53,023 nucleotides of DNA from a virus. The stretch covers positions 1-53,023 of IMG/VR virus record IMGVR_UViG_3300012988_000007; one strand, 5' to 3'. Shown piece by piece: positions 5,243-50,734 of this stretch. A model generated the notes under the pieces. It did not search any database. It was not told the DNA's origin and saw nothing but the letters and a program-made list of their open reading frames with translations. Position numbers and translations under genes: made by a program. Position 1 is the stretch's first letter. Every line of letters begins with the position of its first letter.

Positions 5243-5547
5243 CCACACAACGCAAGATAGAGATAGCCGAAGCGATGATTAGAAATGTAAATACAGGGGC
5301 TATTTTGTATAGGGGAAAATGGCAGACTTCTTCTGTATATGGAATATGTGTTACTTCAAAATGGTATTCAAAAAATAATCATCAGCACGAGCTATTGAAA
5401 AAGGACTTTAGGCTATTCGCAGAAACATTAGGAATATTAACATTTAGAAAACGATTCTGGTTCAATTCTGAGTGCCCAATTAAAGCGCGCACCGAGCGCA
5501 TCGAATTCCTAAAAAAGTACATAGAATATTTAAAAAAAAAGTTATGA
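5236..5547 (+). CDS. Hypothetical basic protein (103 aa)
   Basis: Overlaps both neighbours by a few bases. It is strongly basic, with Arg/Lys clusters and a Trp/Tyr-rich centre and a C-terminal coiled segment (RTERIEFLKKYIEYLKKK). Nucleic-acid binding is possible from charge alone. Not recognised. Confidence 0.65.
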   Translation: MLTTQRKIEIAEAMIRNVNTGAILYRGKWQTSSVYGICVTSKWYSKNNHQHELLKKDFRLFAETLGILTFRKRFWFNSECPIKARTERIEFLKKYIEYLKKKL

Positions 5548-6398
5548 ACATACAACTTATATCTAAAGAAACACCTGTAATTGCTTGGTGGAGTGGCGGG
5601 GTAACGTCCGCAATAGCTTGTAATATAGCTATAAGTCTTTTTGGTATTGATAACGTTAGGCTTGTTTTCATAGACACAAGAAATGAGGACAAAGATACTT
5701 ATAGGTTCAAAACAGATTGTGAAAAGTGGTACGGCAAAGAAATTGAGACCATTACAAATGATAAATACCCAGACATAAAAGCGGTTTGGTTTAAGTTCCT
5801 ATCTTTAAATGTCGCCAATGGCGCCATTTGTTCAACAGAGTTAAAACGTGTAATGAGGGTTAAGTTCCTTAAAGAAAATTCGTATTCATACTCAATATTT
5901 GGCTATGATATGAAAGAGCCTCACAGGGCATTAGCAATGACTCTTAATTATCCAGAGACAAACCCTATATATCCGTTACTTTTGATGGGGTATACAAAAA
6001 CTAAGTGTGTAGAGATTCTTAAGGATTTAGGGATAGAGATTCCAAGAGCATACAAGCTTGGTTTGAATAATAATAATTGTCTTGGTACTGGATGTGTTCA
6101 AGGGGGCATAGGTTACTGGCAACTGATACGCACTATATTACCAGACCTATTCTTTGAAATGGCAGAGGTAGAGCATCAATTGACTAATTTGAAAGGGAAG
6201 CCAGTCACTATGTTAAAAGATCAGAGCAAAGGCGGTGGACTTGTGTTTCTTTTGCCACATCCAGACTATCCATACATAAAAGATATTTCAATTATGAAAG
6301 GCAGAAAGCCAGCCCCATTAAGCGATTGTAACGGATTTTGTGGTGTAGGAGATTTGAAAAAAAGTGAAACAGAAAAAGAGATTAACTATGACAAATAA
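5544..6398 (+). CDS. PAPS-reductase-family PP-loop protein
   Basis: Residues 14-22 (AWWSGGVTS) form the SGG-x-[ST]-S PP-loop that binds and adenylates in the adenine-nucleotide alpha-hydrolase/PAPS reductase family. The C-terminal half has paired cysteines (CLGTGC, CNGFC), as in family members carrying an iron-sulphur or zinc site. Phage members are linked to sulphur transfer or nucleotide/DNA modification, and DndC of the phosphorothioation system belongs here. No other dnd-like gene is visible, so a modification role is speculative. It lies in the early operon two genes before an ASCH-domain gene. Confidence 0.75.
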   Translation: MNIQLISKETPVIAWWSGGVTSAIACNIAISLFGIDNVRLVFIDTRNEDKDTYRFKTDCEKWYGKEIETITNDKYPDIKAVWFKFLSLNVANGAICSTELKRVMRVKFLKENSYSYSIFGYDMKEPHRALAMTLNYPETNPIYPLLLMGYTKTKCVEILKDLGIEIPRAYKLGLNNNNCLGTGCVQGGIGYWQLIRTILPDLFFEMAEVEHQLTNLKGKPVTMLKDQSKGGGLVFLLPHPDYPYIKDISIMKGRKPAPLSDCNGFCGVGDLKKSETEKEINYDK

Positions 6399-7389: not shown

Positions 7390-7580
7390 CGCTAGAATTC
7401 ATAAATAAAAGGATAGCGGAGCAAGACGAATATATTCGTCAACAATGGAAAGTATGCCTAAAAGGAGATATAAGTTTAGACAGGTATGCTATTATTGCTT
7501 CGTCTGCTTGTGCTCAATGGGAATATTTAACTGGCGAAAAACAAAAACTACTCGAAAAAATTGCAACAAATAGCGGATAG
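7386..7580 (+). CDS. Hypothetical protein (64 aa)
   Basis: Overlaps the previous stop (ATGA). Soluble and helical, beginning MTLEFINKRIAEQDEYIRQ. It ends inside a TTGCAACAAAT stretch that is also the upstream element of the promoter at 7586. Function unknown. Confidence 0.6.
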   Translation: MTLEFINKRIAEQDEYIRQQWKVCLKGDISLDRYAIIASSACAQWEYLTGEKQKLLEKIATNSG

Positions 7581-7585
7581 TTTCG

Positions 7586-7593
7586 TATATTTG
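7586..7593 (+). promoter_or_regulatory. Promoter (TATATTTG) with TTGCAACAAAT upstream
   Basis: A perfect TAnnTTTG box with TTG at 7561, 22 bp upstream. The 11 bases TTGCAACAAAT at 7561-7571 also occur at 3506-3516 in the early operator, so this promoter may answer to the same regulator. Confidence 0.7.
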
Positions 7594-7599
7594 TGATGT

Positions 7600-7725
7600 A
7601 GTTGGTGACGCTTCTACGGATTAAGACATAGAATAACGCAAAGACATTTGGATAGCTCCGAATGTTCCTATGAGGTGTTATTCCCTCACGCCCGTCAAGC
7701 ACTAGGAACATTCGGGGCTTTTTCG
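7600..7725 (+). ncRNA. Candidate small RNA or leader with long hairpin
   Basis: Between the promoter at 7586 and the next gene at 7743 lies about 125 bp without a reading frame. Its 3' part is a 16 bp stem (7654-7669 with 7704-7719, one G-U pair) enclosing a 34-nt loop with a smaller hairpin, TGAGG/CCTCA. The stem runs straight into TTTTT, so it is also a terminator. It could be a discrete RNA or an attenuated leader for the genes that follow. Confidence 0.6.
7704..7723 (+). terminator. Terminator arm of the 7600-7725 RNA
   Basis: The 3' arm of the 16 bp stem ends at the T run, a classical intrinsic terminator. Downstream genes start at 7743 and need either readthrough or their own promoter. 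Confidence 0.7.
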
Positions 7726-7742
7726 TTTTAAAAATTTAAATT

Positions 7743-8129
7743 ATGGTTCCTTATATACATGCAGAATTGTCAGCAAAAAGGTTTGGAGGTGTCCCACAAG
7801 ATTACATTGATATTCATGAGCTAATGGATTCTAGCAAAGCAGCATATAGTAATAATGCGCACCGAATTCTAACACACAATAGCTGGTTTGTGGTTACGAT
7901 ATTACCGAAAGTATTTGGGCATATGAGAACGAATAGCGAAGGTAAAAAGTACCCAGTTAAAGACGTAGGCGAATATCATATATTGGAAGACTTCAAAATG
8001 AGATTCATTCCAACAGTGCAAGACTATATTGAAGATATGGGAGTGCCTGATTGGGTAAATAATGGAGGTGGCGTACCAAACAGGCTTAAAAACAAAAAAA
8101 TTAAAGAGCAAAATAAATTAATAGATTAA
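7743..8129 (+). CDS. Conserved hypothetical, His-rich (DUF6915-like?) (128 aa)
   Basis: The pattern of HELMDSSKAAYSNNAHRILTHNSW followed later by FGHMRTN is reminiscent of a small conserved family with paired histidines (DUF6915), which may bind metal. I am unsure of that match. The protein is soluble and follows the small RNA/terminator. Catalysis is not established. Confidence 0.6.
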   Translation: MVPYIHAELSAKRFGGVPQDYIDIHELMDSSKAAYSNNAHRILTHNSWFVVTILPKVFGHMRTNSEGKKYPVKDVGEYHILEDFKMRFIPTVQDYIEDMGVPDWVNNGGGVPNRLKNKKIKEQNKLID

Positions 8130-13928: not shown

Positions 13929-14864
13929 ATGAGTGATAACAAACAGGTAGCAACGCAATCAAATGAGGTTGCAAAACAAGAAAAACAACTGCATATAATG
14001 CAGAGACCAGACGTAAAAGCAAAGTTTGAAGAGCTTTTGGGTAAAAAGAACGTAGGTTTTATAACATCAGTAATGAGCGTTGTGAACTCAAATGACAAGC
14101 TTCGTAACGCAGACCAGACAAGCGTATACATGGCTGCAATGATGGCTGCTTCTTTAGACCTACCTATTAATGCTAATTTAGGATTTGCTTATATTATTCC
14201 ATTCGATCAGAAATTTAAAGACGACAAGGGTAATTGGGGGAAAAAGACTATCGCACAATTTCAGATCGGTTACCGTGGATTTATACAATTGGCTCAAAGA
14301 TCGGGTGTATTTCACAATATTTCGGCAACTCCAATTTACAAAGGCCAACTAGTCTCAGAAAATCCACTGACTGGATTTGAATTTGATTTCAAAGTAAAAG
14401 CAAGTGGAGCGCCTATTGGGTACGCCTCATACTTCAAGCTATTGAACGGATTTGAGAAAACTTTGTATATGTCTGCTGAGGAATTGACGGCACACGGTAA
14501 AAGATTCTCACAAACGTTTAAGAGCGATTTTGGACTATGGAAAGACGACTTTGATGCTATGTGTCTAAAAACTGTAATAAAGCTTCTATTGTCAAAATTT
14601 GCCCCTCTATCAATTGAAATGCAAAAGGCTGTAATTAGCGACCAATCACATATTAAGGATGCGGACACCGTAGATGTTGAATACATAGACAACAAAGAAC
14701 CGTCACCACAAGAAATAGCCCGTCAAAAAGAGTATGACAGGGTCACTGATTTTATAAAGAGCGCAAATACTATTGAGCAATTAGAGCTTGTAGAATCGCA
14801 CTTAGAAGGGGAGCAGATCGAAATGTTCAAATCTAAAAAGAACGAATTTGTCGATAGGAAATGA
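13929..14864 (+). CDS. recT: RecT-family single-strand annealing protein (311 aa)
   Basis: The sequence has RecT hallmarks: MAAMMAASLDLPINANLGFAYI, then FQIGYRGFIQLAQRSG, then GASYFKL-like strands and a conserved MCLKTVIK. RecT proteins anneal complementary single strands exposed by an exonuclease. The gene for that likely partner overlaps by four bases immediately downstream. A short Gln/Lys-rich head precedes the core and a helical tail follows, both normal. Confidence 0.92.
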   Translation: MSDNKQVATQSNEVAKQEKQLHIMQRPDVKAKFEELLGKKNVGFITSVMSVVNSNDKLRNADQTSVYMAAMMAASLDLPINANLGFAYIIPFDQKFKDDKGNWGKKTIAQFQIGYRGFIQLAQRSGVFHNISATPIYKGQLVSENPLTGFEFDFKVKASGAPIGYASYFKLLNGFEKTLYMSAEELTAHGKRFSQTFKSDFGLWKDDFDAMCLKTVIKLLLSKFAPLSIEMQKAVISDQSHIKDADTVDVEYIDNKEPSPQEIARQKEYDRVTDFIKSANTIEQLELVESHLEGEQIEMFKSKKNEFVDRK

Positions 14865-15598
14865 TAGACTTTAGTAATTATAAGTTCAGATGTAGCCAGT
14901 TGGGGGATATTATTACTCCCTCTGGTAAAGTCACAAAAGGCATGGTAACTTATTTACGTGATCTACACATAGAGGCTGTGTATGGCATTACAAATGATAT
15001 CACAAGTAAATACTTCGAGAAGGGCACAGTAAATGAGTCAGACGGCTTAGAAATGCTTAATAAAGCCCTATATCCTAAGTTATTTCTATCACAAAATAAA
15101 GATCGACTTTCAAACGAATGGATAGAGGGTATGTTTGACACTGAGGCTAATAGAGAGATAATATTTGATATTAAAAATGCATGGGATTTATTCACATTCG
15201 GAAGCGCTTCACTAAATCATTTGTACTCATGGCAGTTACACGGATATTCTTTCTTAACTGGTATTAAAAAAAGCGCTCTATTTTATGTGCTTACGGACAT
15301 GCCAGAAAATCTATTGATGAAAGAGGAGACGAGCATGTATTATAAAGGGCGGTTTTCTGATGTGTCAGACCCTTTGTATATTGAGGCTGTAGAGACACTA
15401 AGAGAGAAACATGATTACTCTAAATTAGCACTAGAGGAACGGTTTAAGGTTTGGTTTCAAGAATTCACTCCAAGGCACGAAGAAGTAATTAAAACCGCTG
15501 TAATGAATGCAAGGGAGGTATTAATGAACTTAGAGATAGAACGACTTGAAAATTTGAACAAAAACAAAAAGTTAATCGAAAACGCACGTAATGGCTAA
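14861..15598 (+). CDS. YqaJ/RecE-like 5'-3' exonuclease (245 aa)
   Basis: The PD-(D/E)XK core is suggested by KYFEKGTVNES near residue 50-60, by FDIKNAW (DIK at 103-105), and by a glutamine motif YSWQLHGYSFLTG near 120-132. This order matches phage YqaJ-type alkaline exonucleases. It would resect double-strand ends for the RecT partner encoded immediately upstream. The glutamine motif following the catalytic strand is typical; I cannot confirm every catalytic residue. Confidence 0.75.
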   Translation: MIDFSNYKFRCSQLGDIITPSGKVTKGMVTYLRDLHIEAVYGITNDITSKYFEKGTVNESDGLEMLNKALYPKLFLSQNKDRLSNEWIEGMFDTEANREIIFDIKNAWDLFTFGSASLNHLYSWQLHGYSFLTGIKKSALFYVLTDMPENLLMKEETSMYYKGRFSDVSDPLYIEAVETLREKHDYSKLALEERFKVWFQEFTPRHEEVIKTAVMNAREVLMNLEIERLENLNKNKKLIENARNG

Positions 15599-17524: not shown

Positions 17525-17553
17525 CCATGTTTGGTTATTAACGTTAAGTTATA

Positions 17554-17561
17554 TACCTTTG
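17554..17561 (+). promoter_or_regulatory. Promoter (TACCTTTG)
   Basis: TAnnTTTG with TTTG at 17530-17533, a 20 bp spacing. It precedes the membrane-protein gene at 17612 and the long gene-free region, which it may also transcribe. Confidence 0.65.
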
Positions 17562-17611: not shown

Positions 17612-17848
17612 ATGAAAACTAAACTCGCTGTAAAATCGTCATTAATCGCAATATCAGTTTGCATTTTCTTTTCTGGATTGATTTACTTTATAGTAGACAA
17701 CGCTAAGAGAGAAAAGACAGGCTACTACACCGCTCAGGATACGTTGAAGTCCTACAACAAAGGCTACCAAGAAGGTTCAGAAAACATGAGGCAGGTGATA
17801 AAGTGTGAGCGTACAGATTACGCGGTAAAAAGTTGTCAAGATAATTAA
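17612..17848 (+). CDS. Single-span membrane protein (78 aa)
   Basis: I choose ATG 17612 (MKTKLAVKSSLIAISV), 50 bp after the promoter, over an upstream GTG. One span covers about residues 9-29; a soluble, charged domain with YYTAQDTLKSYNKGYQEG follows. It is the last credible gene before about 1 kb of structured non-coding DNA. Function unknown. Confidence 0.65.
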   Translation: MKTKLAVKSSLIAISVCIFFSGLIYFIVDNAKREKTGYYTAQDTLKSYNKGYQEGSENMRQVIKCERTDYAVKSCQDN

Positions 17849-18034
17849 GATAGTGCCTTATATGGCTGGGCTGCGCTTGTACGTATGTCTGACAGATCGG
17901 AAAGACGATCACAAAGCCGAAAGGCAATCGTTCTTTAAAATAAACAGTAATATCAATAATCATACACATCAACTGCCTGATGGGGCATACTGCATTAGCT
18001 AACAAACCATCTGGTGTATGAGTAAGATAAAGCT

Positions 18035-18105
18035 GGTCATGTAGTATAGGGGTTAGTACGCACTGTGAAGATGGTGAAACATTGGTTCGATTCCAATCAT
18101 GATAC
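18035..18105 (+). tRNA. tRNA-like module 1, irregular anticodon arm
   Basis: An acceptor stem (GGTCATG/CATGATA, one mismatch), a D arm (GTA-TAGGGGTTAG-TAC) and a perfect T arm (ATTGG-TTCGATT-CCAAT) are present. The anticodon arm reads CACTG-TGAAGA-TGGTG, a 6-base loop with wobble pairs, and the segment between D and T stems is two bases short. GTG (His) or GAA (Phe) are visible but neither sits in a canonical loop. It may be degenerate or a structural mimic. Confidence 0.5.
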
Positions 18106-18579
18106 AAATATTTCTTTAAAATATTGAAATTCAAATACTAGCTACATTATGAAGCCATAACTGAGATGGATTATGACCTCAGCAAACAAAACCGAATCGG
18201 CAATCCCGTCCGAAGGCGGAAATGATATGGGAATGAGGGGTAGCTCCCCTCTCAAACCTAGCAATAGGAATCGTTCTTTGAAGTATTAAAAACATGGGTA
18301 GGTGTTCAACGACTGATAATCGTAGCATGTCTGATAAACAATGGCCTACCCGCTTAAACAGGCTATTGCGGTGAGAGGACAATAGTACATTTGGTAGATG
18401 TCCCGTTAAGTTGGGAAGGGTACTTGCTTTAGTCCTGTTTTTAAAGACATTACCCATAAACAATGCTTTTAGCGAAGGTTACTATTCAAGGTGGATAATG
18501 CTACGACACTTGGAATTATAGTAACACCAAGAAAGAGTAAGTGCATTTGATCTTGGACTTGTTTATGGTGTTAATTGGA

Positions 18580-18648
18580 ATGTGTTTAGTCAAGTGGTAT
18601 AATTGCCCCCGAATGGGGTAGTCTCACGTTCGATTCGTGAAACACATC
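18580..18648 (+). tRNA. tRNA-like module 2, irregular anticodon arm
   Basis: The acceptor ATGTGTT/AACACAT is a perfect 7 bp stem. The T arm TCACG-TTCGATT-CGTGA is perfect, and AAGTGGTAT looks like a D loop, although the D stem is poor. The anticodon position holds GCCCC-CGAAT-GGGGT with a 5-base loop and no U at position 33. The segment between D and T stems is three bases too short, so decoding function is doubtful. Confidence 0.5.
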
Positions 18649-18754
18649 AAATAAAATATTAACTGCGAAGCGATCTAAGTAGGCGTACTTTGGCAACCGA
18701 TAGCAACACGATGTACTGATAACTTGGTACTACGCAAACGTGGGTTAATAAGGA

Positions 18755-18829
18755 TCTTTTTTAGTGTAATGGTAGCACATTGGTACGCCTTTATGGAGCC
18801 AAAAGAGCAGTTCGAGTCTGCAAAAAGAG
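18755..18829 (+). tRNA. tRNA-like module 3, enlarged anticodon loop
   Basis: TCTTTTT/AAAAAGA can form an acceptor. The D arm GTG-TAATGGTAG-CAC is perfect, and GCAG-TTCGAGT-CTGC is a good T arm. Instead of a 7-base anticodon loop, TTGGT/GCCAA encloses 13 bases. This is the opposite deviation from modules 1 and 2. Identity cannot be assigned. Confidence 0.5.
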
Positions 18830-18874
18830 CACACAAATAGCGACAGCAGAAGCTATTAAGGGCTATTCGCCCAG

Positions 18875-18906
18875 CCCACCGACTGCGTATTTCGGTGGGT
18901 GTTTTT
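18875..18906 (+). terminator. Strong intrinsic terminator after structured region
   Basis: CCCACCGA/TCGGTGGG forms a perfect 8 bp stem followed by GTTTTT. It closes the transcript that would carry the tRNA-like modules. Confidence 0.9.
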
Positions 18907-18925
18907 ATCTGTAAATAAAATTCAA

Positions 18926-19105
18926 ATGAAATACATTTATTATTGTTTGGTAGTGCTAGTTTTAGTATTTGCTTGCCAATGGTGTTTTAATCATATCAAT
19001 GCTTGGCTAGGTATTGGTTTGTCTGTAGTTATAGCCTTAGTTATTATTCATTTCATAAATCATTTAATTAAAAAAAACATTACAAATGAAAAAGACAGTC
19101 TTTAG
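18926..19105 (+). CDS. Small two-span membrane protein (59 aa)
   Basis: Start placed at ATG 18926 (MKYIYYCLVVLVLVF), just after the terminator. Two hydrophobic spans (about 3-19 and 27-47) and a charged C-terminus overlap the start of the next gene. Function unknown; neighbour to the SPFH-like lipoprotein, so it may be its membrane partner. Confidence 0.6.
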   Translation: MKYIYYCLVVLVLVFACQWCFNHINAWLGIGLSVVIALVIIHFINHLIKKNITNEKDSL

Positions 19106-19913
19106 TATCATCATTCTTGCCTTGTCGGCTCTTCAATCATGCTCATGTAGCCGTGTCGCTCCTAATTACTATGGGGTACTTATGGAGAACTACGGGAAAG
19201 AAGGGAAAAGCGATTATAAAAAACAACAAGGTAACGTTAGTACATCTTCGCCTGGAACAGAATTATTCCAAGTACCAGCTTGGGAGCAGAGAGCCGACTT
19301 TAACGACAAAGAAGGCAACAAGAAAACTTTGCATCTAAAAGCTGCCGACAATACAGAGTTTACCGCTAATCCTGTATATAGCTATATGGCTATTGAATCT
19401 AAGGTAGTTGATTTGGTTTTTCAAAATGCACGACTTGGCTCTGGATCAGACTTTATGAGATCACTTGAAGACAATGTAATAGAGCCAAACATCTACGACA
19501 TCATTAAAGAAGAATCAAGAAAGTACATAACTGATACCCTTATGGCTACTGGTGGATCGCTTAAGTTTGAGGAACGAGTTCAGATATTGGTAAAGAAAGA
19601 ACTTGAAAACAAAGGGCTTCAATTGCTTACATTTAGTGCTAATCTTGACTTCTCTGAAAAGGTAAAGGCCAAGATTGATAGCAGGAACGAAGTAAATACT
19701 AACGTGTCTGTAATTGATCAGCAAATAATCGAACAGAAGAAGCGTAATGAACTTGCTGAACTAAAGGCTAAGGAAAGCCTAATCATAAGCGCTGGACTTA
19801 CTCCTCAAATATTGAGACAACAACAAATTGACGTAATGGAAGACTTTGTTAAGAAGTGGGACGGTAAAACGCCACTATATGGAGATATATCCACAATGAT
19901 ATTAAAGCAATAG
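19086..19913 (+). CDS. SPFH/prohibitin-like lipoprotein (275 aa)
   Basis: A signal peptide with lipobox-like LQSC (Cys19) precedes an SPFH-like (band 7) domain: NYYGVLMENYGKEG, then LKAADNTEFTANPVYSYMAI, and a helical region with the Ala/Glu-rich LAELKAKESLIISAG stretch typical of prohibitin helices. SPFH proteins form large rings on membranes and modulate membrane proteases. A phage version attached to a membrane could guard against superinfection or shape lysis timing. That role is inference; the family assignment is moderately strong. Confidence 0.7.
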   Translation: MKKTVFSIIILALSALQSCSCSRVAPNYYGVLMENYGKEGKSDYKKQQGNVSTSSPGTELFQVPAWEQRADFNDKEGNKKTLHLKAADNTEFTANPVYSYMAIESKVVDLVFQNARLGSGSDFMRSLEDNVIEPNIYDIIKEESRKYITDTLMATGGSLKFEERVQILVKKELENKGLQLLTFSANLDFSEKVKAKIDSRNEVNTNVSVIDQQIIEQKKRNELAELKAKESLIISAGLTPQILRQQQIDVMEDFVKKWDGKTPLYGDISTMILKQ

Positions 19914-19990: not shown

Positions 19991-20167
19991 ATGAAAGAAA
20001 TAAGTTTTACAGCAACATTCGAAATTAAAGGGTTAACGGCTACTCACGAAGAAGAGTTAACGATTGTTGTCATGGATGATTGGTCAGAAAGAGACATAGA
20101 GAATATTAAGTTCAACACTGCACAAGATTGGATTCAAAATAACATAAACATATATATTGGATCATGA
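19991..20167 (+). CDS. Hypothetical protein (58 aa)
   Basis: ATG 19991 opens a 58-codon frame (MKEISFTATFEIKG), overlapping the next start by four bases. It has one beta-rich half and a helical end. Not recognised. Confidence 0.6.
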   Translation: MKEISFTATFEIKGLTATHEEELTIVVMDDWSERDIENIKFNTAQDWIQNNINIYIGS

Positions 20168-20793
20168 AAACAGAATACAAAGTAGGCAAGTGGTATTGGT
20201 TTGATTTCCCATCAGAGGGGTCATGTATAGGCAGGTTTGAACGCCTAAGTGTTATTTGGACAGAAAATTCACTAACAATATCAGAATTATATTCGCCAAC
20301 TGGTACTGGAAGAATTGGTCAAGGATCTTTCTTGGAGAAATACTGCAAAGGCCTCGCCACTCCCTCCCAAATAGAAACATGTCTTAAGGCTTATGCCGAG
20401 AAGAACGGGTATGTAGTAAATGCGCAAATAATAGACCTGAATGGCTTAGAAAAATGCATTGGATCAGATATTACATATTCTGGCAAAGATTATATGTATG
20501 ATGAAAATTATGCGTTGATATATGAAAACGGAAAATGGGCTGAAATTATCGCACACGCTCCAAGCGTTCAGAATACGCAAGACGAGGCGTTGCCCGAAAA
20601 CATTCATAAAAATCTATCAGAGCTAAAAGCTGAAATTAACAATGACGATATGTTGGTATTTCCGCCTGATCCAATAGTTAGGAAACAAACAATAGGAGAA
20701 TCCAAGTTAGATATTAACGGAAATATGGTGTCTATAGATGAATTAATTGAAGTGTACAAAAAGATGTTGGAAATTAAAACAATAATTGGATGA
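20164..20793 (+). CDS. Hypothetical protein (209 aa)
   Basis: Residues 60-80 (LATPSQIETCLKAYAEKNGY) match a phage-specific family of unknown function widespread in Bacteroidota phages, where a conserved helix precedes a beta region. The C-terminal part is coiled (NGNMVSIDELIEVYKKML). Soluble. Confidence 0.65.
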   Translation: MKTEYKVGKWYWFDFPSEGSCIGRFERLSVIWTENSLTISELYSPTGTGRIGQGSFLEKYCKGLATPSQIETCLKAYAEKNGYVVNAQIIDLNGLEKCIGSDITYSGKDYMYDENYALIYENGKWAEIIAHAPSVQNTQDEALPENIHKNLSELKAEINNDDMLVFPPDPIVRKQTIGESKLDINGNMVSIDELIEVYKKMLEIKTIIG

Positions 20794-22371: not shown

Positions 22372-22553
22372 GCCAAAACACAGAAGTACCCGAATTAAAA
22401 CGACTCGCAACCTTTAACGGAAAAGGATGGAAAGAATACAAGATTTTCGTGTACAAAAACGAAAGCACAGTTTTGAGAACGTTTGTAAAGTTTGTAGCGA
22501 TAAATATTGCTGATTTTACGAATATAGAACTAGGAACCCCATGGAAACAATAA
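22368..22553 (+). CDS. Hypothetical protein (61 aa)
   Basis: Start set at ATG 22368 (MSQNTEVPELKR), which overlaps the previous stop by four bases. Mixed protein with Lys-rich strands. Not recognised. Confidence 0.6.
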   Translation: MSQNTEVPELKRLATFNGKGWKEYKIFVYKNESTVLRTFVKFVAINIADFTNIELGTPWKQ

Positions 22554-22705
22554 ACGGAGCACCTAGTTTGTTAATATTCTTCATTGTGGCTATGATGTAC
22601 ATGGTGTTGGGTATTTGTTTGGTGTGGATTTGTATTATGATTCATAAAATATTAGTAAAATTATATTCTTGTGTTATAAAATACGGGATTAGAATTAAAA
22701 AATAA
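22541..22705 (+). CDS. Small membrane protein (54 aa)
   Basis: METINGAPSLLIFFIVAMMY leads into a long hydrophobic segment and a basic C-terminus. It overlaps the previous gene by 13 bases. One or two spans. Confidence 0.55.
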   Translation: METINGAPSLLIFFIVAMMYMVLGICLVWICIMIHKILVKLYSCVIKYGIRIKK

Positions 22706-22720
22706 AGAAATAGTACAATT

Positions 22721-22894
22721 ATGAGCATGGTAGATTATTTCTCATTTAATACATATGCTTTTTTTAATTGCGTCACAAAGGAATATTGCGTATTAGTTGG
22801 TCAACAAGGCAAGAAACTAAGAATGTCACGCAGAATGAAGAAAAGATTAAAACGTGGTATGCGAAAAGGATTTATATTTAAAATAAACAAATAG
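22721..22894 (+). CDS. Small basic protein (57 aa)
   Basis: Begins MSMVDYFSFNTYAFFN; the second half is strongly basic (RRMKKRLKRGMRKG). Probably nucleic-acid associated. It ends three bases before the DUF5681-like gene. Confidence 0.55.
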   Translation: MSMVDYFSFNTYAFFNCVTKEYCVLVGQQGKKLRMSRRMKKRLKRGMRKGFIFKINK

Positions 22895-22897
22895 TCT

Positions 22898-45996: not shown

Positions 45997-46941
45997 ATGA
46001 AAGCAGTAGTAATAGGTGGAGGTGGTGCTTTTGGGGCAATAACAATAGGTAATGCATCTAAATTAGACAAGGATTACGACTATGTTTTAGGGGTAAGCAC
46101 TGGCGCTATTATGTCCGTCCTGTTTGCTTTGAAAAAATGGGACAAACTAAAAGAAGCCTATACTACCAGCAAAAACGATTATATATATAATATCTACCCA
46201 TTCAATAAAAAGGGTGATCTTAAGATATATCTTGCGGTTTGGCGATCAATTATGGGCTATGTATCTATTGGGGAAATGAAACCTATTCTTGCTCTAGTTA
46301 GAAAATGGCTTTCTGAGGACGACTATTTAGAATTAAAAGATAGTGGCAAGACCGTTATTATAGCATTGCTTAACGTCACTACAGGACGAGTAGAATATAA
46401 GTATAGTAACGATCATGATTACTGGGAATTCACTGAGTATATCGCTGCTGCTTCTTGCCCCGAGCTTCTTGGGAACCTATGGAATATAAACGGATGGGAA
46501 TACGCAGACAGTGGCCTAGCTACTTTGGTACCTATCGTAAAAGCTACTAAATTACCAGTTGATGATATCGACATTTACATACATAGGGAATTTAAGAGGG
46601 ACGTAAAAAACTCTCAGATACTTGACATGAAGGTAGGCGCATTGCCAAGGCTGTTTATGTTCTCAATGCGTATTATTAAAGCTATATTTAGGTATATATT
46701 AATACAGCGTGAAAACCTAGAATATAAAGAGCAAAGAGAAGGTATTCTGAGGGCATTAATTAAGGGGAAAAAAGTAACATGCTATTATCTTGATTCGATG
46801 TTTAGGAAACATAACGCTATGGTTATGGATTCTAAGATTATGAAAAGTATGTATGATTATGGATTTAGAAACGGAATGAATAAATTTGAGTATAATTTAG
46901 AAAATTGGGAAGGATTGTTTGATCCACAAGATGACGAATAG
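45997..46941 (+). CDS. Patatin-like phospholipase (314 aa)
   Basis: The N-terminus has GGGGAFG (7-13), a patatin oxyanion-like loop; GVSTG (32-36) carries nucleophile Ser34; and DSG at 171-173 supplies the dyad aspartate, in place of DG[GA]. These are the patatin catalytic parts in the right order. Patatins hydrolyse membrane phospholipids. The gene is between fibre genes and a holin-like gene, suggesting help in lysis or in penetrating the envelope. Confidence 0.8.
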   Translation: MKAVVIGGGGAFGAITIGNASKLDKDYDYVLGVSTGAIMSVLFALKKWDKLKEAYTTSKNDYIYNIYPFNKKGDLKIYLAVWRSIMGYVSIGEMKPILALVRKWLSEDDYLELKDSGKTVIIALLNVTTGRVEYKYSNDHDYWEFTEYIAAASCPELLGNLWNINGWEYADSGLATLVPIVKATKLPVDDIDIYIHREFKRDVKNSQILDMKVGALPRLFMFSMRIIKAIFRYILIQRENLEYKEQREGILRALIKGKKVTCYYLDSMFRKHNAMVMDSKIMKSMYDYGFRNGMNKFEYNLENWEGLFDPQDDE

Positions 46942-49775: not shown

Positions 49776-49982
49776 TTACTCGTTGTTATTTTTCTTCCAG
49801 TCACCATCAGCGTCAATATGATTAGGAGGCCAACCCCTAAAAGACACCATTATCATTCTTAGTATACGACCAAAAAATATATTTAGTCCATTGACCAAGA
49901 AATAAAGAACCATTGATATCATCGAAAAGCATCCAACGAAGACCCAAAAACCGCTAACTGCAAATTTAAGTATCTCTAACAT
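49776..49982 (-). CDS. Membrane protein (68 aa)
   Basis: Two hydrophobic spans (about 5-30 and 35-50, MLEILKFAVSGFWVFVGCFS at the start), then a charged C-terminus (DADGDWKKNNNE). Function unknown. Confidence 0.6.
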   Translation of the reverse strand: MLEILKFAVSGFWVFVGCFSMISMVLYFLVNGLNIFFGRILRMIMVSFRGWPPNHIDADGDWKKNNNE

Positions 49983-49993
49983 TATATTGTTGT

Positions 49994-50224
49994 TTAAGTG
50001 TTATTTATAATCTGATTATCCCAAGTTATCCAATCGAAGATGTCCCAGTCTATTTCTTGCAACTCCTTTATTCTCGCTTGTACGTTTTCTTTTAGCTGGT
50101 TAATAGCCTGTTCTTTGTTTGATCCGTATCCCTCAATACGAATATCGGAATTACTATCATCTAATCTTGCCTCAAATGATTGCCTTTTTTATTTACCGTC
50201 ATTGTGTATTTGTAATCTTAACAT
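49994..50224 (-). pseudogene. Small gene with in-frame TAA
   Basis: Read leftward: MLRLQIHNDGK, TAA (50189-50191), then KRQSFEARLDDSNSDIRI continuing 65 codons to a second TAA. The continuation is coherent helical coding with no start of its own. One codon change (for example AAA or GAA) would give a full 76-residue protein. Probably a recent nonsense mutation or an assembly error in AAATAAAAAAGG. Confidence 0.6.
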
Positions 50225-50726
50225 ACTATTGTTGTTTATTTACTCTTTGGTGGTGCCTTTCTGAAAAGCCAGACATGACAATTTCCTGTCACTGTCCGAC
50301 TTAAGATTACTTACTCAACGGAGCCAGCCATCTTCAAAGCCAAAATACTTGAGATTATTCAGTATTTCGTGGTGTCATCAGTTCGGTTATTAAATCAACC
50401 TAGTACGCATCGGGCAACTCACCATTAAACATCTCCCGTGGTTTATATCGTACATTCCCGTGGTAACCTATTCCTGCACTGCCACCGTATATTCACCGTC
50501 CAAAATGCAAAAAGCTCATTACGTTGGTCGAGAACGAATGAGCTTTTTATTTGTCGGGCAACCCCAACGGGTGAAGTTTTTACACTTCAAGTTCTTTCGC
50601 ACATTTCTCGACCTTGCGCATTTACACCACAAACCTACGAACAATTATTTTAAGATCAAAATAAATTATGTGGATAAGTTTTTGAAAATAATCTTGAAAA
50701 ATGTAAACATAATTAAAAATCATTCG
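50225..50726. other. Gene-free, hairpin-rich region (about 500 bp)
   Basis: No credible gene is seen in about 500 bp; longest frames lack starts or sensible composition. Visible structure: TGACA/TGTCA hairpin near 50268-50285 extended by GACA/TGTC, a repeated CCCGTGGT (about 50436 and 50458), a strong terminator hairpin at 50509, and TGAAGT/ACTTCA at about 50572. Either a leftward long leader/RNA feeding the 49994-50224 gene, or transcript ends from both sides. Neither strand can be ruled out. Confidence 0.5.
50509..50548 (+). terminator. Bidirectional intrinsic terminator
   Basis: AAAAAGCTCATT and AATGAGCTTTTT form a perfect 12 bp stem; A and T tails on either side allow termination in both directions. 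Confidence 0.85.
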
Positions 50727-50734
50727 TATATTTG
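50727..50734 (+). promoter_or_regulatory. Promoter (TATATTTG)
   Basis: Perfect TAnnTTTG 39 bp before the first rightward gene of the pre-lysis operon. Confidence 0.7.

Follow-up and report, generated by a model that had tools for sequence, protein, structure and literature searches.

GOLLD and ROOL are RNAs known to form homo-oligomeric RNA cages. They are phage-borne, large and gene-free, and they lie near tRNAs or contain them; in GOLLD the 3' part is conserved, the 5' part less so, and the linker sometimes holds tRNAs (PMC12286853). Smaller structured elements also accompany phage tRNAs, as with the HDV-like theta ribozymes, whose cleavage site is adjacent to the tRNA and for which a role in alternative 3'-end processing has been proposed (PMC10879173). 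The Vibrio phage ICP1 makes an abundant non-coding transcript of ~800 nt from an ORF-less space of ~1 kb (PMC7567579). Phage tRNA arrays are series of cloverleaves on one strand. In engineered tRNA-scaffold RNAs, and in the tRNA-like domain of tmRNA, the acceptor, D and T arms frame another RNA, which takes the place of the anticodon arm.

The locus described here lies in a window, the whole stretch of 53,023 nucleotides of viral DNA that was analysed. Like GOLLD and ROOL, it is phage-borne, large, gene-free and tRNA-associated; however, it is a modular array with altered tRNA-like units, and the Rfam models of GOLLD and of ROOL find no match in the window, neither at the gathering threshold nor at E<=10, so that membership in either family, which the original prediction had suggested, is rejected. 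As in phage tRNA arrays, the cloverleaves stand in series on one strand, but they lack a canonical anticodon arm and are joined by structured linkers and a UGAC hairpin, while units of the wider class discussed below carry inserts of 12-119 nt among the matches listed. In contrast to engineered tRNA scaffolds, that class occurs naturally in phages, its inserts are of many kinds, and a leader hairpin accompanies it. The UGAC hairpin and the theta ribozymes are both small structured elements beside phage tRNAs, but the hairpin, a short stem, often lies 4-5 nt upstream of the 5' end and matches no ribozyme family; Rfam finds neither a ribozyme nor a riboswitch in the window. The large RNA of ICP1 was rejected as a relative, its ORF-less space containing no UGAC hairpin or T arm. 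The likeness that we take CGGAAAGAC to have to the peptidyl-transferase loop of 23S rRNA was also set aside, since an 8-mer has about a 4% chance of a match at some place in 23S. On balance, we lean towards reading the region as an array transcript, with tRNA-like modules as processing sites, and as a divergent member of its class.

The gene-free gap and its borders

The IMG/VR virus record is that of a tailed phage: it has genes for terminase, portal, tail sheath, baseplate and replication proteins. The host is probably a member of the Bacteroidota. The phage also carries genes for a phosphoadenosine phosphosulfate reductase (window 5544-6398) and a patatin-like phospholipase (45997-46941). 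Gene calling by codon usage places no gene in 17849-18898, which is the longest such gap in the window, in agreement with the gene-free block of ~1 kb that had been claimed; other gaps without called genes are 49948-50731 (784 nt) and 22372-22897 (526 nt). Protein-coding content, which would count against an RNA at this place, was checked on either strand: ORFs from the gap have no PHROG match at E<0.05 and score low, and a coding region was rejected. The best explanation of the array region is that it is non-coding, neither a protein gene nor an ordinary tRNA cluster. The features of the gap and its surroundings are as follows.

17530-17561, + strand: candidate Bacteroidota-type promoter, TTTG-N20-TACCTTTG (sequence; consensus from general knowledge)
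17612-17848, + strand: 78-aa ORF for a small membrane-type protein, first part of the putative transcript (ORF reading)
17849-17929, + strand: 5' domain of the array, TGCCTT (17854-17859) / AAGGCA (17921-17926) around two hairpins, the UGAC hairpin included (predicted fold)
17890-17911, + strand: UGAC-GGAAAGAC hairpin, TGACA-GATC-GGAAAGAC-GATC-A (shared motif; covarying stem)
17926-17942, + strand: boxA-like repeat AATCGTTCTTTAAAATA, copy 1 (repeat family D1)
17957-18024, + strand: long hairpin, TAATCATACAC / GTGTATGAGTA (inverted repeat I11)
18035-18104, + strand: tRNA-like module 1 (Rfam tRNA, 35 bits; ARAGORN 'tRNA-???'; scan)
18107-18123, + strand: boxA-like repeat, copy 2 (repeat family D1)
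18269-18285, + strand: boxA-like repeat, copy 3, AATCGTTCTTTGAAGTA (repeat family D1)
18296-18525, + strand: linker with three perfect stems, 18296/18345, 18356/18434 and 18478/18518 (sequence; stem enrichment)
18580-18647, + strand: tRNA-like module 2 (ARAGORN 'tRNA-Phe'; scan)
18755-18828, + strand: tRNA-like module 3 (scan; missed by both ARAGORN and Rfam)
18875-18908, + strand: predicted intrinsic terminator, CCCACCGA/TCGGTGGG + TGTTTTTAT (sequence; segment z -3.6)
19086-19913, + strand: downstream lipoprotein gene (phrog_200 lipoprotein, E 1.2e-25)

Both of the predicted borders hold up as signals in the sequence. At 17554-17561, TACCTTTG fits TAnnTTTG with a TTTG 20 nt upstream, an arrangement that we take to be the Bacteroidota promoter consensus, and a near copy of this promoter (TCTACCTTTGCATTACTAAAA) is found in a relative (L015), ~130 nt 5' of a tRNA-like unit. 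The other border, the terminator end at 18875, is the most significant folding segment of the region. The promoter reaches the 78-aa ORF first, and therefore the array would form the 3' part of the transcript; the PHROG matches of this ORF are weak, all to families of unknown function.

The limits of transcription, the processing and the role of the products during infection are inferences from sequence. RNA polymerase would start at ~17565, pass the small ORF and then the array, and stop at the terminator, with read-through of the array possibly aided by the boxA-like sites. These three copies, which presumably resemble boxA of Bacteroidota rRNA leaders, suggest Nus-type antitermination of a non-coding transcript; the enrichment of boxA-like sites near scaffolds of the wider class is modest (0.105 vs 0.047 per kb). 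In the array, the UGAC-GGAAAGAC hairpin would form part of a 5' domain, and three cloverleaves would have their anticodon arm replaced; RNase P and the nucleases that process tRNA 3' ends probably recognize these cloverleaves. Cuts by these enzymes would yield stable small RNAs, namely the modules and the structured linkers that separate them. Across the wider class, a conserved cloverleaf scaffold would display a variable structured insert at the place of the anticodon arm.

Altered cloverleaves and local stems

A relaxed cloverleaf scan, requiring a T loop, a T stem, a 6-7 bp acceptor and a D arm with GG while leaving the middle free, yields exactly three cloverleaves when run over the whole window in both strands. 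All of them lie within the gap and on one strand, as had been claimed. The same scan finds none in 1000 shuffles of the region, a count that serves as a guide and not as a strict probability, since the limits were relaxed after the three modules had been seen; an earlier, stricter scan listed no module in the window. All three modules have the acceptor, D and T arms of an ordinary tRNA array, and all three lack the canonical anticodon arm (5-bp stem, 7-nt loop, U33). Module 1 pairs 6 of 7 acceptor positions, keeps its D and T arms, and has an anticodon arm of 4 bp with an 8-nt loop. Module 2 combines a perfect 7-bp acceptor and a 5-bp T stem with an anticodon arm cut down to CCCC-CGAAU-GGGG, without U33, and may yet prove to be a tRNA-Phe whose loop is unusual. 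The acceptor and D arm of module 3 are perfect, its T stem has 4 bp, and a 15-nt loop stands at the anticodon position.

An ordinary array of tRNAs had been named as an outcome that would explain the region away. ARAGORN calls two genes in the gap, but one is without a three-base anticodon and the third module is missed, while the Rfam tRNA model recognizes one module. ARAGORN predicts no tmRNA in the window. The array is probably of a new RNA class rather than an ordinary tRNA array.

The four complementary arm pairs of the original prediction are all present (17957-17967/18014-18024; GGGTAGG at 18296 with CCTACCC at 18345; AAACAGG at 18356 with CCTGTTT at 18434; GTTACTAT at 18478 with ATAGTAAC at 18518), and they are part of a general excess. 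Short local stems in the gap are about threefold above shuffles, with 15 perfect stems of >=7 bp within ~100 nt against 5.1 +/- 2.1 in dinucleotide shuffles, of which 0/60 reach 15. Taken as a whole, the region has an ordinary folding energy (z -1.2); segment 18285-18579 has z -1.5, and the predicted fold of 17849-18034, for a single sequence, has z -1.9. Of the proposal of a structured non-coding RNA of a new class, the structured part stands on the altered modules and the stem excess, whereas the single fold of ~1 kb finds no such backing in the global z. Recurring tRNA-like units in a modular array, together with a covarying leader hairpin that other phages share, have better support than one giant fold.

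The UGAC hairpin and the insert-bearing scaffold in other phages

The hairpin at 17890-17911 consists of UGAC, a covarying stem of ~4-5 bp and GGAAAGAC. The motif recurs in tRNA-like arrays of relatives that share the lipoprotein gene, and in at least 120 IMG/VR stretches; in many unrelated phages it stands next to a tRNA-shaped RNA. The IMG/VR search patterns for UGAC fixed most stem bases, and covariation was therefore restricted to sites found without a stem requirement which, with the window's own copy, give 26 distinct hairpin sequences. Among these, 90.4% of the stem is paired against 59.7% when shuffled, with 31 double changes against 9.0 (0/500), and controls in which the partner was slid reach at most 50% pairing and 12 double changes. 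In loci fetched for other reasons, stems of >=4 bp are found at 20 of 27 distinct GGAAAGAC sites with an upstream UGAC, compared with 2 of 29 without one. A cloverleaf starts <=25 nt from the hairpin at 47/147 sites, compared with 51/5800 random places, and 39 of those 47 cloverleaves begin 4 or 5 nt past the stem. This spacing is not universal in the class, and the window hairpin itself lies ~124 nt from the first module. An Rfam search of 20 hairpin-bearing loci returned only tRNA matches, with no ribozyme or riboswitch. The motif is absent from E. coli genomes, as judged by one flanking query, and from four MAG genomes that hold the scaffold described below. Many UGAC-GGAAAGAC hairpins closely precede start codons of phage genes, 3' of several unrelated conserved upstream stem domains (L162, L179, L187, L189 and others, and the Proteus and Providencia phages H101-H103), and some loci hold multiple hairpins inside a few hundred bases (L157 3533-4167; L182 100-985).

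The downstream lipoprotein gene was found in 24 IMG/VR loci. Near it, L001, L004, L012 and L015 have cloverleaves with a replaced or abnormal anticodon arm, and the units of L004 and L012 form arrays with structured-looking linkers; relatives with this neighbour show either arrays or single units of ~200 nt. Their common scaffold, AGTCAGGTGGCGGAATGGTAGACGC...ACAGGTTCGAATCCTGTCCTGACTA, keeps the acceptor, D and T arms and has a variable insert in place of the anticodon arm. The acceptor and D-arm pattern of this scaffold occurs in at least 120 IMG/VR stretches, with carriers such as L004 (4462-4832), L012 (1587-1993), L032 and L091. Among the matches listed, there are 108 distinct inserts of 12-119 nt (median 57), of which just 9 could form a canonical anticodon arm and 99 could not, while the scaffold is nearly invariant and its changes in the T stem and acceptor are compensatory. 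Again among the matches listed, these inserts fold more stably than shuffled sequences (mean z -0.84 +/- 0.10). They show no excess of antisense matches to the locus that carries them, the mean longest match being 8.81 vs 8.84 shuffled. Rfam sees the scaffold units as tRNA only. The scaffold has a discriminator A and a tRNA-Leu-like D arm, which raises the question of charging by LeuRS. In L014, ARAGORN predicts a tmRNA at 7445-7847 (tag VNQVNANMSKVFSLINSNVEELEMAA), just 5' of a tRNA-like unit at 7923.

The window modules share the structure of this class, in that the acceptor, D and T arms are present and the anticodon arm has been replaced, but their sequence differs from the consensus AGTCAGGTGGCGGAATGGTAGACGC and diverges from the common AGTCAGG scaffold, so that the likeness is structural only. 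By its hairpin, its altered cloverleaves and the neighbourhood that it shares, the window appears to be a divergent member of a class of phage RNAs that is widespread and has no Rfam entry; scaffold sequence identity plays no part in this link. No DNA match of the array was found in phages, and no close homologues through the neighbour proteins at 20164-20793 and 14861-15598. In 22 full records with the lipoprotein gene, array matches are short and at chance level, with the exception of the UGAC motif in the record of L012. No published description of the scaffold or the hairpin was found in the literature searched, which was largely that open to readers without a subscription. Tentatively, and with somewhat less than even confidence, we propose that the class is a natural phage RNA display: a conserved, tRNA-shaped scaffold that lacks the anticodon arm, with interchangeable structured inserts, arrays with structured linkers and a conserved leader hairpin, matured by host tRNA-processing enzymes and spread over different host groups, of which the window would be a divergent member.

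A related arrangement is seen in Vibrio phages. A stretch of ~0.8-1.4 kb, antisense to its neighbours, occurs in 64 phage records, mostly from phages of Vibrio lentus and relatives, with conserved ends and a mosaic middle that holds tRNAs or tRNA-like inserts. Most of the fetched records have one or two UGAC-type hairpins there, and some annotate 'tRNA-OTHER' or 'tRNA-Und'. In this region the only Rfam match is a tRNA below threshold, in L150 (24 bits), and the 3' domain of the region shows 0 compensatory pairs, the fetched sequences being too alike. In L150 (Vibrio phage 1.104.O of a Vibrio lentus host, MG592476 16881-17886) and the 63 other Vibrio records, it is a largely unannotated non-coding region of ~1 kb near capsid and neck genes.

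Competing readings and what the class would mean

The gap could instead encode a single RNA of ~1 kb that folds as a whole, with tRNA-like arms embedded in it, and works as one particle as in GOLLD and ROOL. This is an analogy that fits the size, the tRNA association, the gene-free setting and the enrichment of local stems, and the ends of the array are complementary over 8 bp (17864 GGCTGGGC / 18869 GCCCAGCC), although 23/500 shuffles have such a match as well. The idea is kept alive by the ~1 kb Vibrio region, where the same hairpin accompanies conserved ends and a variable middle bearing tRNAs or tRNA-like inserts, and the division of GOLLD into a conserved 3' part, a more variable 5' part and a linker sometimes with tRNAs is likewise comparable (PMC12286853). 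We nevertheless consider it unlikely, as neither covariance model matches even at E<=10, the global z is ordinary, and the relatives that share the neighbouring gene have arrays or single units of ~200 nt in its place.

A role of the modules as decoys for tRNA-binding or tRNA-modifying systems of the host, such as acceptor-end toxins, tRNA-cutting defences or synthetases, seems somewhat less probable again. A decoy immune to anticodon nucleases would be expected to look like these modules, with the anticodon arm lost and the acceptor end kept, and phage counter-defence in general fits such a role; but the idea names no defence target, and it leaves the variable structured inserts and the linkers unexplained. 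Simple decay of phage tRNA genes, with the spacer neutral apart from them, would agree with the two tRNA-like genes called by ARAGORN, and phage tRNA arrays are common, with L091 intermixing tRNA-like units and many normal tRNAs. However, all three modules hold their acceptor and T arms and are abnormal in the anticodon arm only, the spacer has its stem excess and a shared covarying hairpin, and 99 of the 108 class members among the matches listed lack a canonical anticodon arm, yet keep a near-invariant, covarying scaffold, which makes decay very unlikely.

If the reading as an array of tRNA-like modules is true, many phages produce small-RNA families built on the frame of a tRNA, which tRNA finders miss or label 'tRNA-???', 'tRNA-OTHER' or 'tRNA-Und'. 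It would provide a catalogue of interchangeable phage RNA domains with a common processing signal, and it would bear on the frequent company of large phage non-coding RNAs with tRNAs. Cultured Vibrio phages represent experimentally tractable material for the hairpin and the tRNA-like inserts, and their region swaps tRNA or tRNA-like modules between conserved blocks.
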